Below, piece after piece: positions 677 through 21,392 of a DNA stretch of 21,482 nucleotides. Below the pieces are notes generated by a model. The model worked only from the letters and a program-made list of their open reading frames with translations. It did not search any database and was not told the origin of the DNA. Location of the stretch: IMG/VR virus record IMGVR_UViG_3300034072_001639, positions 1 to 21,482 of that record; one strand, given 5' to 3'. Numbering within the stretch: the stretch's first letter is position 1; every line of letters begins with the position of its first letter. A program made the translations under genes and the position numbers. This DNA is from a virus.

Positions 677-1354
677 ATGAGCGACGATGGCCGAATCGAT
701 GGTGACCGCGTCCGGAGGCGGATGGACGAATTAGGTCTAAGCCAGAATGGTTTAGCTCAGCGGGTTGGTGTGTCGCAGGCTTCGATCGCCAAAATCACTG
801 GCGGCCAGTCCTTCGGTTCCAAGCACCTCCACCGGATCGCGCGGGAACTTGGGACGACAGCGGCCTATTTGACTGGCGAGACCGACGATCCCAGCGAAGG
901 CGCGCTTCCGATCCCGACATCCGACGATATCGCTCAGCAGGTTGGCGGGGTTCGGATCAAGGAAATCGATCTCGATTACGGGATGGGCGCGACGTGGATC
1001 GACGGCGTGCCGGTGACCGAGATCGAGCGCGTTTTCCCTGCCGACTGGCTGGTGCAGTTCACCCGCGCCTCACCGCAGCATCTGTTCTTCGCGCATGGCG
1101 CGGGCGATTCGATGATGCCGACGATCCTCGATCGCGACATCGTGCTGATCGACACCACCCAGCAGACGCTCAACATGGCCGATCGCATCTGGGCGGTCGC
1201 GTTCGGCGGTGCCGGGATGATCAAGCGGCTGCGGCCTCAGCCCGATGGCGGCGTGCGGCTGATGAGCGACAATCCCTCGATCCGCGACGAGGTTGCCTAT
1301 GACGGCGAACTGTCGATCATCGGGCGCGTAGTTGCGGTAATGCGGAAGGTTTAG
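677..1354 (+). CDS. CI-type prophage repressor, HTH + S24 peptidase
   Basis: The 225-residue protein has an N-terminal helix-turn-helix (about 10-66; LSQNGLAQRVGVSQASIAKI) and a C-terminal LexA/CI-like S24 domain (about 110-225). The S24 nucleophile is Ser145 in GDSMMPT and the paired Lys is Lys183 in GMIKRLR, so the Ser-Lys dyad is intact. The protein should hold the prophage silent by binding the 603-667 operators, and RecA-stimulated self-cleavage on DNA damage is the known behaviour of the family. The cleavage site is not obvious; the linker around 85-95 contains GGVRI rather than a clear Ala-Gly. There is no strong ribosome binding site upstream of ATG 677. It diverges from the Cro-like gene and leads the cargo genes. 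Confidence 0.93.
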   Translation: MSDDGRIDGDRVRRRMDELGLSQNGLAQRVGVSQASIAKITGGQSFGSKHLHRIARELGTTAAYLTGETDDPSEGALPIPTSDDIAQQVGGVRIKEIDLDYGMGATWIDGVPVTEIERVFPADWLVQFTRASPQHLFFAHGAGDSMMPTILDRDIVLIDTTQQTLNMADRIWAVAFGGAGMIKRLRPQPDGGVRLMSDNPSIRDEVAYDGELSIIGRVVAVMRKV

Positions 1355-8331: not shown

Positions 8332-9480
8332 TCAGTTGAGCTGGTCTGCGAAGCCGGCGTAATAGCGGTCGGTAATTCGCTGATTCAGGATGATGTTTTC
8401 AGCAGGCGCAGCGGGCGTGAAATCATAGTCGATGGTGAGCCTGCCGCTCGCCAGATCGGTCTGGCTGTTGAGCGCAGGGTCGAACCATGCGCGGCCGTCA
8501 ATGATGCGACCCTGTGCCTTGAGGTTCCGGATTTCCGCGTTGATCGTCTCGAGGATGTCCTTCACCAGGCCGCGTGTCATCGGCTTGTCCACCGCCCAGG
8601 CAAGGCCCTCGGCAATGGTATCCTGCAGCACCTGGGCAGTGCGCACCGCGCTTTCGAACGCGAACTCGGGTACATCGCTGCAGGTGCGGTTGCCCCAGAA
8701 GCGATAGCCGTTCATGCGGACGATCGTGGTCACTTGGCCATCGTTGAGCACGCCGGCGGGCGTGGTGGCATCCTGCAGGTCGAAATAGACCGATTTGTCG
8801 ATGCCGGTGACACCATCGACCGCGACATTGGAGAGGGTCTTGTGCCAACCCTGCTCTTCGTCGATGCGTGCGCGCAGGCCCATGGCACGGGCAACGGCGT
8901 CGCCGGCGAACTGGTTGGTGAAATTGGGCCAGATGAGCATCAGCTCACGCGCGGAGAATTCATCGCGATAGGTCAGCGCGTCGGCGATCTCGTCTCCGAT
9001 CGCGCGGGCATAGACCATGCCGCGCAGCCGCTTGGCGATGATCACCATCTCGGCGGTCACATCCTGCACGTCGAGACCGGGGCAGCCGAGGATGCGCGGT
9101 CGAATGCCGAGCTGCGCCTGAGCATCGAGCAGGCAATGCATGCCGGTGGCCACGCCGCCGGTGTTGCCGCCGATCACGTTGGCGGTGGTTTCCGCGTCAT
9201 CCTCACCGGGGGCCACGCGCACCACCACCAGGATCGGACTGGTCTGGTCGGCAATCGCCTCGAGCGAAGGCAGCAGGGTGCCGCCGGTACCAGCCTTGCC
9301 GATGGCGGAACGGATATCGGTGACCAGCACCGGGGTATCGAGGGGGAAGGCTTCATCAAGCGCCTCGGTCGCCGCACCTGCGGCAGCGGTGGCGGTCGCG
9401 ACCAGGCCGATCACGGCGCTGGCAATGGGCACGATGGGACGCGCGCCGGTGGTGAGTTCATTGACCTTGATGCCGTGCAT
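8332..9480 (-). CDS. FI: Contractile tail sheath protein gpFI
   Basis: From ATG 9480 the protein has 382 residues, near P2 FI (396). It begins MHGIKVNELTTGARPIV and continues through FPLDTPVLVTDIRSAIGKAG and SLEAIADQTSPILVVVRV, the sheath N-terminal domain. The C-terminal half has NQFAGDAVARAMGLRARIDE, RFWGNRTCSD and KPMTRGLVKDILETINAEIR, which contribute to the sheath protofilament. An in-frame ATG at 9540 would add 20 residues unlike the family (MPLVSAANTPARKAARGRWI), so 9480 is preferred; AGAGG lies about 10 bases before it. It heads the F operon, behind the 45-base element at 9545-9589. Confidence 0.95.
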   Translation of the reverse strand: MHGIKVNELTTGARPIVPIASAVIGLVATATAAAGAATEALDEAFPLDTPVLVTDIRSAIGKAGTGGTLLPSLEAIADQTSPILVVVRVAPGEDDAETTANVIGGNTGGVATGMHCLLDAQAQLGIRPRILGCPGLDVQDVTAEMVIIAKRLRGMVYARAIGDEIADALTYRDEFSARELMLIWPNFTNQFAGDAVARAMGLRARIDEEQGWHKTLSNVAVDGVTGIDKSVYFDLQDATTPAGVLNDGQVTTIVRMNGYRFWGNRTCSDVPEFAFESAVRTAQVLQDTIAEGLAWAVDKPMTRGLVKDILETINAEIRNLKAQGRIIDGRAWFDPALNSQTDLASGRLTIDYDFTPAAPAENIILNQRITDRYYAGFADQLN

Positions 9481-9544
9481 AATCCATCTGCCTCTTGCTG
9501 CTTTCCGGGCGGGGGTGTTTGCAGCAGAGACAAGAGGCAAAGGC

Positions 9545-9589
9545 TGGCCAAAGGCCAGCGCGGGCGGTTGTTACCGGGCCGGTTACAAC
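9545..9589 (-). promoter_or_regulatory. 45-base element, candidate late promoter P_F
   Basis: These 45 bases are 41/45 identical, without gaps, to 15976-16020. The part at 9567-9589 is a 23-base near-palindrome with a single non-pairing position either side of the centre, ending in GTTGT...ACAAC. The remainder (9545-9559) is the perfect hairpin GCTGGCC-TTT-GGCCAGC plus flanks. In P2 the Ogr activator binds TGT...ACA dyads centred near -55 of late promoters. Here the dyad centre (9578) is 98 bases before the FI start, exactly where P2 has P_F. The role is inferred; the repeat itself is directly visible. Confidence 0.6.
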
Positions 9590-9593
9590 GACG

Positions 9594-9968
9594 TCAGCTA
9601 TTACTGGGGCTGGCACCGCCCCGGCGGATCGGGATGGACAGTTGCACGCGCGAATTCGCCTGGCCGATATCCGTGCGCTCGCCTTCCAGCGCGATCACCA
9701 GTTCGCCGGGCTGCTCACCCAGGCCGATAGCGATGCGCTTCAAGCGGAGCCGCGGTTCCCAGCGCTGCAGAGCCAGCGCAGTCGCCCCATAGAGCAGCAG
9801 GCGGGTGGCGCCATTGATGGGCTGGTCGATCAGATCGAACAGCATCGAGCCATAATCTCGGCGCATCACGCGGGTGCCGAGCGGGGTGGACAGGATGTCA
9901 CCAATCGACTGCGCCAGATGCGCATTGCCTTCGATCTGCTGCCCCGTTGTCTTGTCGATTCCCAGCAT
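9594..9968 (-). CDS. W: Baseplate wedge protein gpW (gp25-like)
   Basis: The 124-residue protein has the gp25/W signature LAQSIGDILSTPLGTRVMRR, DYGSMLFDLIDQPIN, then LALQRWEPRL. In P2, gpW is the T4 gp25-like baseplate wedge component that nucleates the sheath. It is 11 bases after V. Its location between the tailspike/V and FI, rather than before J, is unusual for P2-type phages. It ends 4 bases before the P_F candidate element. Confidence 0.95.
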   Translation of the reverse strand: MLGIDKTTGQQIEGNAHLAQSIGDILSTPLGTRVMRRDYGSMLFDLIDQPINGATRLLLYGATALALQRWEPRLRLKRIAIGLGEQPGELVIALEGERTDIGQANSRVQLSIPIRRGGASPSNS

Positions 9969-9979
9969 CTGCAGTCCCC

Positions 9980-10552
9980 TTATTGCGGCGCGCCGGTTTG
10001 CCCGCTGCCAGGCTGCACGCCACCATGCCGGTGGGTCTTGAGGCTGATGCCATCGGCGATCACGTCTTCGCTGGCAGTCAGCGTGCCGTTGAGCGTGACG
10101 TCACCGTTGATCGTCACCCCGGCCTGGGCGTTAATGGTCAGACCGCCCGGCGCGGTGATCGTGGCGGTGGCACCATCGGGTAGCAGGGCCTCGAGGTGAT
10201 GCGCCTGCGGATCGTAGCGCAGCTGCGCGCCATCGGCGAAGTCTATGCGCTCTTCGAGGCTCGAGCCGAGCGGCGGGAAACTATCGCGAATGATCCCGGT
10301 CAACGCCAGCCCGGCACCGATCTCGCCATCCGGGCAGAGCAGCACAACCTGCTCGCCGACAGTGGGAGGCGACCAGATGCGCGTGGAACCGCAGCGCGGC
10401 ATGATCCAGCGGATGGGAGGGGTGACGGTTTCGCCGCCTTCAGGATCGCCGCAGCGCACGATACAGCGCGCCGAATCGAGATCGATAGAGTCGATGACAC
10501 CAAGACGGATCAGGGTGGCGGGATCGAGAGGAATGTCTTCGACAGTCATCAT
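9980..10552 (-). CDS. V: Baseplate spike protein gpV
   Basis: From ATG 10552 there are 190 residues (P2 gpV has 211). An OB-fold region (about 10-100; RLGVIDSIDLDSARCIVRCG, then WSPPTVGEQVVLLCPDGE) is followed by a beta-helix repeat region (130-172, GLTINAQAGVTINGDVTLNG). The tip is THRHGGVQPGSGQTGAPQ; His-x-His at the tip is the iron-binding motif of gpV-type membrane-piercing spikes. The start overlaps the stop of the 46-aa ORF as ATGA; the second codon is also ATG. It lies behind the tailspike gene instead of between S and J. Confidence 0.95.
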   Translation of the reverse strand: MMTVEDIPLDPATLIRLGVIDSIDLDSARCIVRCGDPEGGETVTPPIRWIMPRCGSTRIWSPPTVGEQVVLLCPDGEIGAGLALTGIIRDSFPPLGSSLEERIDFADGAQLRYDPQAHHLEALLPDGATATITAPGGLTINAQAGVTINGDVTLNGTLTASEDVIADGISLKTHRHGGVQPGSGQTGAPQ

Positions 10553-15047: not shown

Positions 15048-15971
15048 TCAGTCCCAAGTGCCGCCGATGGTGACATCGATGTCGGCACAGTGGCCTGCCT
15101 GCAGCATGCTGTAGACCTGATCGACGGCAGGCTCCGCCAGTTCGACACGCTGGACGCCGGCGACATGCAGCGCCGCGATGATCGCCGATCGCGGGATGTC
15201 GCGGCCTAGGCGGCGTGCGGTAGCAAGATAGCTGTTCAGACTGCCAAGCGCGGTGTTGAGGATCAGCTCGGGATCGGGACCCGAATACAGCCAGAGCGCA
15301 GCGACGACATCGAAGGGCTGGATATCAGCAGACTGCACGGTGACCAGATCGGTCAGAGGCCGCACCTGGTCGTTGAGCAGCACGGCTTCGACCGCTGCCA
15401 GCGTTCCCGGCGGAGCGGTGCCATCGCCGGTGCGCGACAGGACCGAGACAACGACCTCGCCCGGCTCAGGCGAGGTGGCCGACGCATCAAGCACGTCACC
15501 CGATGCCGAGATCGCGTGATAGACATAGGCCATTTCAGGCCCGGCGACCGAGAAGCTGTGTGGGGCGAGCAGCACGCGGCGGCGCAGCTCATCGTCGTTT
15601 TCCATGACGGCCCCGGCCCCTGTTACCGGATTGGCGGGCGTGATCTCGAGTCGCTCGACCGCGTAGAGCGCCGCCAGGTGATCGAGATTGGAGCCGTGAG
15701 CAAAAGCGATGAGCAGCTGCCGCGCCGCATCGTCGAACGCTTGGGCAAGCACCTGTTCGTCATAGCTGTCAGCCTGCAGCAGCTTGATCGCCGGATCGGA
15801 TTCTACCAGCGCGCTAAAGGGCGGGAACAGCGCGAGAAGCTGGGCACGCTTGGCCTCATAGCGCGTTTCGAAATCCGTCTGCGGCACCACCGAGGGCGGC
15901 GGCAGTCGCGACAGATCGATGGCTGGCGAAGTGGCGATGGACGAAATCGACATGGCTGTCAGCAGCATCAT
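15048..15971 (-). CDS. J: Baseplate protein gpJ
   Basis: The 307-residue protein is close to P2 gpJ (302). It begins near IDLSRLPPPSVV, followed by FETRYEAKRAQLLALFP, then the gp47-type core with VLAQAFDDAARQLLIAFAHG and SNLDHLAALYAVERL, and the C-terminal LNSYLATARRLGRDIPRSAI segment. J is a T4 gp6/gp47-like wedge protein. Several starts are possible: ATG 15971, the adjacent ATG 15968, or ATG 15953 (MSISSIATSP). None has a strong ribosome binding site. The 45-base element at 15976-16020 ends just 4 bases before 15971, which makes 15953 a serious alternative. Confidence 0.93.
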   Translation of the reverse strand: MMLLTAMSISSIATSPAIDLSRLPPPSVVPQTDFETRYEAKRAQLLALFPPFSALVESDPAIKLLQADSYDEQVLAQAFDDAARQLLIAFAHGSNLDHLAALYAVERLEITPANPVTGAGAVMENDDELRRRVLLAPHSFSVAGPEMAYVYHAISASGDVLDASATSPEPGEVVVSVLSRTGDGTAPPGTLAAVEAVLLNDQVRPLTDLVTVQSADIQPFDVVAALWLYSGPDPELILNTALGSLNSYLATARRLGRDIPRSAIIAALHVAGVQRVELAEPAVDQVYSMLQAGHCADIDVTIGGTWD

Positions 15972-15975
15972 GCCT

Positions 15976-16020
15976 TGGCCAAAGGCCAGCGGGCGCGATT
16001 GTTACCGGGCCGATTACAAC
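15976..16020 (-). promoter_or_regulatory. 45-base element, candidate late promoter P_V
   Basis: This is the second copy of the 9545-9589 element (41/45 identical). The dyad part (15998-16020) is less symmetric than the other copy but keeps TTGTTACCGGGCCG and TTACAAC. The hairpin part keeps GGCCAAAGGCC. It stands directly upstream of J, where P2 has its P_V late promoter (in P2, upstream of V). If the start point were ~55 bases past the dyad centre it would fall near 15954, at one of the J start codons. Confidence 0.6.
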
Positions 16021-16044: not shown

Positions 16045-16096
16045 AAAACCAGCCGGGCCTGACCCGATAAGTTGAGTACTCAACATATCGGGCTGG
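16045..16096 (-). terminator. Terminator-like 30-bp palindrome with T-run
   Basis: CCCGATAAGTTGAGT (16063-16077) and ACTCAACATATCGGG (16078-16092) form a 30-base palindrome with a single mismatch. In the minus direction an outer CCAGCC/GGCTGG pair (16096-16091 with 16054-16049) can also form and is followed by TTTT (16048-16045). It lies after S and before the P_V candidate, so it probably ends the O-to-S operon. A protein-binding site is an alternative reading for the uninterrupted palindrome. Confidence 0.55.
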
Positions 16097-20321: not shown

Positions 20322-21392
20322 TTAGGGATCAGCCGCTTCGAAGGTGATGTTCTCGGCCATCACGGCAAAGTCGTCGTCTTCGATAATATAGCCTTCGTTG
20401 ACGCTGTTGTAGTCAACCAGGCCGCGCTTGTTTTCCGGCTCATCCTTGATGTACCGGCGGCGGCTGCCTTCCTGATAATAGATCGAGAGGTTTTTGGGCG
20501 GCGTGATGAGCATCGTGCCTTCCGGGAAAAACGGCACGATTACCGCAGGCCGTCCACCGATCTGCTTTTGTGAACGGATGATCTGGCCCACCACTTCGTC
20601 GCTGGTCGCTTTCCCGCCATCGACCGTCGCCGCAAGCGGGCGGTTGATCATGGGGAAGTACTTTTCATCGACCAGGTCGGAGCTGACCATCACGAGATGC
20701 TCGGTATTGGCGCGTGCCCAGCTCGGCATTCCGGAGATGAGATCATAGGCCAGGGCATCGATATTCTGATAGTTCTGCCCAGCTCCGACCAGCACCGGCG
20801 CTGCCGCCCCGGTAGCGGTGCCGCCAACCATTGCGCGGCCCATGACATGATCGGGACGTTCCAGGCGAAGCTTTTGCAGCCAACCGATGTTGAGGTCTTC
20901 GCCGTTCGGGTTTTCTTCGGGGTCGGTCTGGGCGGCAGCCGCAAGGCCATGCCATCCCACGGTGATCCGGGTCAGCGCGATGGAAATTGCGACCGCCCGG
21001 CTATAGCGAACTGCGAAGTCGGGGAACTTCGACCACGCATCGATCAGCGCCCAAGGCAGCATCGTATCGAACTCGGTGTCGAAGAGCTCATACGATTTTT
21101 CCTGCATGCGCCCAACATACTTCGGGGTGCGAGGGAGGTTCGCCGCAGACGTCCGCGCGCCGATCATATTGTTCGCGCCCATGCCGATAGTCTGCCCCTT
21201 GAGGTCGCGCACCCCAAAGATGTTGATCGCGTTGAGGAACTCGACCGACTCGGTCTGCAGGTCTTCGAGACGCTGCTCGACGGTCGGATCGATCGTAAAC
21301 TGGCGGTGGACATTCGAGGTGTTGTTGATCTGACCGATGGTCGCATAGTGCCGGTCAAGAGCTTCGCGACCGCGCTGGGAAAGAGTGTTCAT
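20322..21392 (-). CDS. N: Major capsid protein gpN
   Basis: The 356-residue protein is almost exactly P2 gpN length (357). Conserved family segments include FTIDPTVEQRLEDLQTESVE, then FLNAINIFGVRDLKGQTIGM, FDTMLPWALIDAWSKFPDF and NIGWLQKLRLERPDHVMG. It has the HK97-type capsid fold and in P2 is processed together with scaffold O. It lies directly downstream of O. A short hairpin follows the stop. Confidence 0.97.
   Translation of the reverse strand: MNTLSQRGREALDRHYATIGQINNTSNVHRQFTIDPTVEQRLEDLQTESVEFLNAINIFGVRDLKGQTIGMGANNMIGARTSAANLPRTPKYVGRMQEKSYELFDTEFDTMLPWALIDAWSKFPDFAVRYSRAVAISIALTRITVGWHGLAAAAQTDPEENPNGEDLNIGWLQKLRLERPDHVMGRAMVGGTATGAAAPVLVGAGQNYQNIDALAYDLISGMPSWARANTEHLVMVSSDLVDEKYFPMINRPLAATVDGGKATSDEVVGQIIRSQKQIGGRPAVIVPFFPEGTMLITPPKNLSIYYQEGSRRRYIKDEPENKRGLVDYNSVNEGYIIEDDDFAVMAENITFEAADP

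Follow-up and report, generated by a model that had tools for sequence, protein, structure and literature searches.

A repeated 45-base element before FI and J of a P2-like phage as the upstream part of two putative Ogr-dependent late promoters

What could a 45-base unit do that stands, nearly unchanged, upstream of both the tail sheath gene FI and the baseplate gene J of a P2-like phage? The two copies occupy positions 9545-9589 and 15976-16020 of the window, which is a whole IMG/VR record of 21,482 bases (62% G+C) from an incomplete P2-like phage with hosts of the Blastomonas/Sphingomonas type. The minus strand of the window carries the virion genes in the order N, M, L, endolysin, R, S, J, I, H, spike, V, W, FI, FII, T, U, and D, and the plus strand carries an S24-type repressor gene and other genes (Table 1). 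A direct, ungapped count gave 41 identical positions out of 45, and comparison of both copies as a repeat family (D3) gave 91% over 46 nt. The 21-bp core TTGTTACCGGGCCGRTTACAA occurs at two places in the window versus no match, with up to three mismatches allowed, in 100 dinucleotide shuffles. The repeat to which an earlier note had drawn attention was confirmed in this way as lying far above chance, and the 23-bp near-palindrome described there, GTTGTTACCGGGCCGGTTACAAC with its TTGT...ACAA ends, is present. The statement that operon V begins at the J-side copy proved wrong: the operon begins at J, and V and W are located at its far end.

Because all late genes lie on the minus strand, the element was read in that direction. 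The core then reads TTGTAAYCGGCCCGGTAACAA, and CTGGCCTTTG stands 9 bases behind it. TTGTAAYCGGCCCGGTAACAA is a dyad of the form TGT-N13-ACA, and the 13-bp spacing and the TTGT/ACAA ends are found at both window sites. We consider it highly probable that each copy forms the upstream part of an Ogr-dependent late promoter, PJ before J and PF before FI, with ogr and a third copy lying beyond the record. A zinc-finger activator of the Ogr type, encoded by the phage just outside the record, would bind the 19-bp dyad TGT-N13-ACA, presumably as a dimer, at a centre about 56 bp before the transcription start, and would recruit the host RNA polymerase to a promoter with TNG(C) at -35 and a weak -10 region. 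PJ would thus switch on the baseplate operon (J...V-W) and PF the tail operon (FI...D), whose first gene is FI. The third dyad copy would stand past the right end of the record, where the P/Q and O operons diverge. This reading draws on four things that can be seen in the sequences themselves, namely, the copies and their positions, the ogr genes of full-length relatives, the promoter geometry, and the covariation between half-site and Ogr.

Table 1. Coordinates of the putative late promoter elements and of selected genes in the window
Feature	Position	Strand	Remark
Ogr-type dyad TTGTAACCGGCCCGGTAACAA (TGT-N13-ACA) of putative PF	9568..9588	-	centre 9578
CTGGCCTTTG block of putative PF (TGGC at +21 to +24 from dyad centre, -35 position)	9549..9558	-	invariant in 8 sequences
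Predicted PF -10 region (9534-9529) and transcription start (~9522)	9522..9534	-	from position only
Ogr-type dyad TTGTAATCGGCCCGGTAACAA of putative PJ	15999..16019	-	centre 16009
TGGC of putative PJ (+21 to +24, -35 position)	15985..15988	-	
HTH-S24 repressor gene	677-1354	+	encoded in the window
FI tail sheath gene	8332..9480	-	PHROG 23 tail sheath, E 1.9e-101; ATG at 9480
W baseplate gene	9594..9968	-	stop 5 bp before the PF dyad
J baseplate gene	15048..15953	-	PHROG 4226/6 baseplate; first gene of the J-I-H...V-W operon
N capsid gene	20322-21392	-	virion gene

The likely ATG of J (15953) lies 56 bp from the centre of the PJ dyad, so the predicted PJ transcript would begin on the start codon or right beside it and be leaderless or nearly so. 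The annotation of P2 has a comparable arrangement at V, whose start codon and transcription start coincide at position 10308, and in P2 and 186 the annotated dyad centres are located 55-57 bp before the start. At the predicted -10 positions, the hexamers CTTGTC (PF) and CTGCTG (PJ) are poor matches to TATAAT, as would be expected of activator-dependent promoters. A generic sigma-70 scan picked up neither PJ nor PF, and an Rfam search gave no match.

Closest to the window are sequences of Blastomonas sp. and Sphingomonas ursincola, which share 93-94% identity in FI, together with several virus contigs; the prophage of S. ursincola KR-99 has about 93% in FI. When eight close sequences were aligned, the PF dyad was found between W and FI in all of them, and the conservation that the earlier note had called for was thereby established. 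Two of the relatives are longer than the window, G001 (34,983 bases) and G002 (37,757 bases), and each contains exactly three copies of the dyad TTGTAAYCGGSCCGGTAACAA. One separates the divergent P/Q and O operons (3944 in both), one stands directly upstream of J (10072 and 10565, respectively), and one lies between W and FI (15972 and 17841). The copies that had been anticipated before other late operons therefore exist, at P/Q-O in addition to J and FI. The Ogr/Delta-like gene that had been anticipated was found as well, since G001, G002, and the Blastomonas and Sphingomonas ursincola genomes give a match to Ogr/Delta (PF04606) above the curated cut-off, and a zinc finger CX2CX22CX4C of this family is encoded in G001, G002, and two further relatives (L141 and L142). 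The window itself holds neither ogr nor a third site, and the record ends before the expected place of each; both should lie just beyond its ends, the third site beyond the right one. The best match of the sheath protein to an annotated phage (62%) is with Microcystis phage Mae-JY29 (PP438421), whose gene order is P2-like and which, despite its label, may stem from a proteobacterium in the culture; no clear TGT...ACA dyad was seen at its P/O, J, or V positions.

The FI copy also contains the perfect 7-bp stem GCTGGCC/GGCCAGC that the earlier note had singled out, and the element could be taken for an RNA hairpin or for a terminator or processing signal between operons, built from two stem-loops of which the second is GCTGGCC-TTT-GGCCAGC. 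Both inverted repeats do fold as RNA, the FI copy folds better than shuffled sequences (z = -2.37), and the element follows directly on the stop codon of W. The J copy, however, has only a shorter stem of 5 bp and folds no better than shuffles (z = -0.13). In addition, the window, L005, and L141 have the full 7-bp stem, but just 3-4 bp of it are left in L003, L006, and L014; CTGGCCTTTG does not vary among the eight sequences, those with the broken stem included. A rho-independent terminator would combine a conserved GC-rich stem with a T-run; here the stem is not conserved, no T-run stands behind it, and the element is absent from the terminator hits; a terminator at the P/O copy, which lies between divergent operons, would make no sense for either. 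The missing stem conservation largely refutes the hairpin or terminator, which we regard as very improbable, and the hairpin was rejected as a functional part although it is present in the FI copy. Its left arm would instead be a promoter element, T-N-G(-C), at a constant distance of 21 bp to the dyad centre, and such an element, seen in the 130-site alignment described below, explains why CTGGCCTTTG was kept where the stem was lost.

The geometry of the putative Ogr-dependent promoters was compared across about 80 relatives, and 130 non-redundant sites were aligned on the dyad centre. Matches to TTGT-Nn-ACAA in 24 records amounted to 34 at n=13 versus 0-5 at each of the other values of n from 8 to 19, and those with N13 were located at the starts of P/O, J, and V, W, or FI. 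Dyads with N13 stand at late-operon starts in dozens of relatives, and the spacing is 13 bp at nearly every site. Downstream of the dyad, TNG occurs at +21 to +23 from the centre in 81 of the 130 sites, where no other offset exceeds 27, and 60 of them have TNGC. For V sites, the match to TATAAT peaks at +44; J and O sites show a weaker peak at about +44/45. These data pointed to a -35-like element, a 17-bp spacer, a -10 region, and a start near +56. About a dozen divergent relatives, several of them with Ogr, gave no clear dyad in our scans. A free search for a joint dyad of any length was too noisy to be of use, length 21 winning or tying in only 17 of the 63 records with two regions; in records with scores close to 1.0, the winning dyads appear to be of odd length and centred at the same place.

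The earlier note had likened the dyad to that of P2. An Ogr-type late-operon site, conserved far beyond chance, was indeed borne out, whereas the N12 spacing of P2 was not, since the actual spacing is N13. The annotated sites of P2 and 186 and the upstream region of P4 sid fit N12 (P2 PV is ambiguous), and in P2 and 186 one half-site is imperfect (TTGT...CCA), while the window sites have N13 and are nearly perfect. P2 PO, P2 PF, and 186 pJ carry TGGC or TAGC 14 bp downstream of the base with which the proximal half-site begins, and the same distance is kept at N13 sites. The extra base of the N13 type thus appears to lie between the half-sites, with the proximal half-site keeping its distance to the promoter. 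The layouts are alike in that P2 and 186 also have one site common to the divergent P and O promoters and another before FI; they differ in the baseplate operon, whose first gene is V in P2 and J in the window phage.

N13 spacing is already known from other phages. Predicted late promoters of the Ralstonia phages phiRSA1 and phiRSY1 follow TGTTGT-(X)13-ACAACA (PMC5694545), and Burkholderia phage KS5 has N13 at three late promoters. phiRSA1 and phiRSY1 resemble the window lineage in having TTGT-N13-ACAA upstream of the late operons and a zinc-finger Ogr homologue; they differ in the dyad centre, and the PF site between W and FI belongs to the window lineage. No sigma-70 type promoter was seen at their late sites (PMC5694545), and TNG(C) at -35 becomes visible only when many sites are aligned. 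For the Stenotrophomonas phage Smp131, promoters PP', PO', PJ', and PV' were predicted at sites reported as TGT-N12-ACA, one of which, as listed, spans 19 bp (PMC3931495). Smp131 shares with the window phage a J-I-H operon, the order V-W-FI, a late promoter before J, and an Ogr-like protein with CX2CX22CX4C, but its third site stands before V. In most relatives of the window phage, W runs straight into the ribosome-binding site of FI and the third site is found before V or W instead, so that the site between W and FI appears to be a feature of the window's lineage. The window element very probably adds one case to a kind of late-activator site that was already known.

The position at operon borders also fits a different origin, in which the repeat would lack a regulatory role and be either a boundary left by recombination or a linker of gene modules that was copied recently: the element sits exactly at module borders and, given that most relatives lack it in the W-FI interval, looks inserted there. 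Conservation, however, is largely confined to the dyad, the CTGGCCTTTG block, and single positions scattered downstream, while the flanks drift, and very divergent relatives show the same geometry in different letters, which copying cannot explain. We give this origin next to no credence. The spacing likewise bears on whether a host regulator such as PpsR/CrtJ uses the dyad as its operator. Blastomonas and S. ursincola belong to aerobic anoxygenic phototroph lineages, and published PpsR/CrtJ sites have the form TGT-N12-ACA. Against such an operator, the spacing is N13 throughout, the same geometry is found in relatives from Chitinimonas, Marinobacterium, and Burkholderia, and the half-sites vary with the phage's own Ogr; a host regulator is accordingly a most unlikely owner of the dyad. 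As dyads are typical of operators and an HTH-S24 repressor is encoded in the window, we also considered that a phage repressor of the S24/CI type might bind here and silence the late genes in the lysogen. In the window, G001, and G002, neither the repressor nor the early region has a copy nearby, the copies are centred at -56 of the predicted late promoters, which is an activator position, and the covariation described next is with Ogr, all of which makes a repressor operator highly unlikely.

Evidence on the identity of the activator, to our mind the part deserving specialist attention, came from the outermost base of the dyad. Records that lack TTGT ends keep the 19-bp geometry but have other outer bases (GGT...ACC, CGT...ACG, or AGT...ACT), and comparison of the Ogr proteins singled out one residue, which is flanked by a conserved Arg and Ser and follows the second cysteine (R-X-S). 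When a different protein was used in a later scan, most of the loci that it gave for the R-X-S comparison were new. Every RRS locus for which the W start was covered, including L260, L263, L266, and L271, has GGT-N13-ACC 65-67 bp before W. At the same place and within the same Ogr clade, RSS goes with CGT...ACC (L256 and L262), RHS with CGT...ACT (L264), and RDS with CGT...ACA (L274). Counted by distinct fingers, Arg was accompanied by G/G in 15/15 cases and a residue other than Arg in 1/47 (a Lys); within the clade, the figures are 15/15 and 1/7 (Fisher 9e-5, uncorrected for kinship). In a motif-masked tree, which has few columns and many weak forks, most G/G cases fall into a single clade, which itself contains several departures. 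For cases derived from genomes, the pairing of each Ogr with its prophage was assumed from their positions.

Since the outer base of the half-site covaries with a residue of the Ogr finger, the sites are tied to that protein. Whether the outermost base of xGT-N13-ACx' is contacted by the R-X-S residue (Thr15 in P2 Ogr), making this one readable position, seems to us evenly balanced. We are just as divided over the code that would come with it, in which Arg reads G, Thr, Ser, and Asn accept T, and C goes together with EGS or YGS, motifs in which Gly has a changed neighbour. In the 130-site alignment, the fixed parts are GT...AC, the 13-bp spacing, and TNG at +21, while the outer base changes with the activator. 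The window lineage shows the common state (RTS in the Ogr of its relatives, outer base T, TGT...ACA); the variant activator specificity suggested by the earlier note does not apply to this lineage but has good support in other branches, with G or C as outer base.

One further rule, that Asp (RDS) goes with A, was predicted in advance from L147 and failed on G057a, L298, L301, and L274. The RDS protein G057a goes with TGT...GCA before J, L298 has TGT, L301 has CGT, and L274 has the CGT...ACA given above; Asp is thus accompanied by A, C, or T. For G057b (YDS), where no firm prediction had been made beforehand, TGT was found at three sites. The residue-base rule appears to be incomplete, with the protein sequence of the activator only partly predicting the letters of its site, and a sequence search for a solved structure of the Ogr finger returned nothing useful.

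With these promoters, the Blastomonas/Sphingomonas lineage joins the phages with a recognisable Ogr regulon, the operon borders of the virion genes are fixed for the window lineage, and the promoter layout can be used as a search pattern in other prophages. If the proposed contact is true, the late regulon of a P2-like phage would be partly predictable from the sequence of its activator, as would the satellites and co-resident prophages able to share that activator. The separation of fixed from variable positions in the 130-site alignment makes DNA recognition by small zinc-finger activators testable by exchange of a single residue.

Several other repeats were noticed. The window contains a 110-bp direct repeat (family D1, 75% identical) at 2123-2232 and 2375-2484, on the plus-strand side between the repressor-linked genes and D. 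The S-J interval holds a near-perfect 30-bp palindrome, CCCGATAAGTTGAGTACTCAACATATCGGG, at 16063-16092, within about 130 bp that are absent from the close relatives G001 and G002; no second copy of its core was found in the window or elsewhere among the fetched loci, and its 24-bp centre gave no match in viral_contigs. Ten scattered copies of a similar palindrome, TGTTACCGRNYCGGTAACA, are found in the 66-kb record IMGVR_UViG_3300017605_000212 (L079 and G036), e.g., at 2949, 15303, 20019, 29149, 32322, 46204, 53068, 54542, 60285, and 64361. This record has no Ogr match, and the scatter recalls stoperator-like repressor sites; the copies are probably unrelated to the late promoters discussed here. 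Finally, Sphingomonas sp. UV9 (G057, contigs C9 and C12) carries three Ogr genes, with the motifs RDS, YDS, and RSS; they come with separate late-gene regions and offer a natural setting for cross-activation between co-resident prophages.
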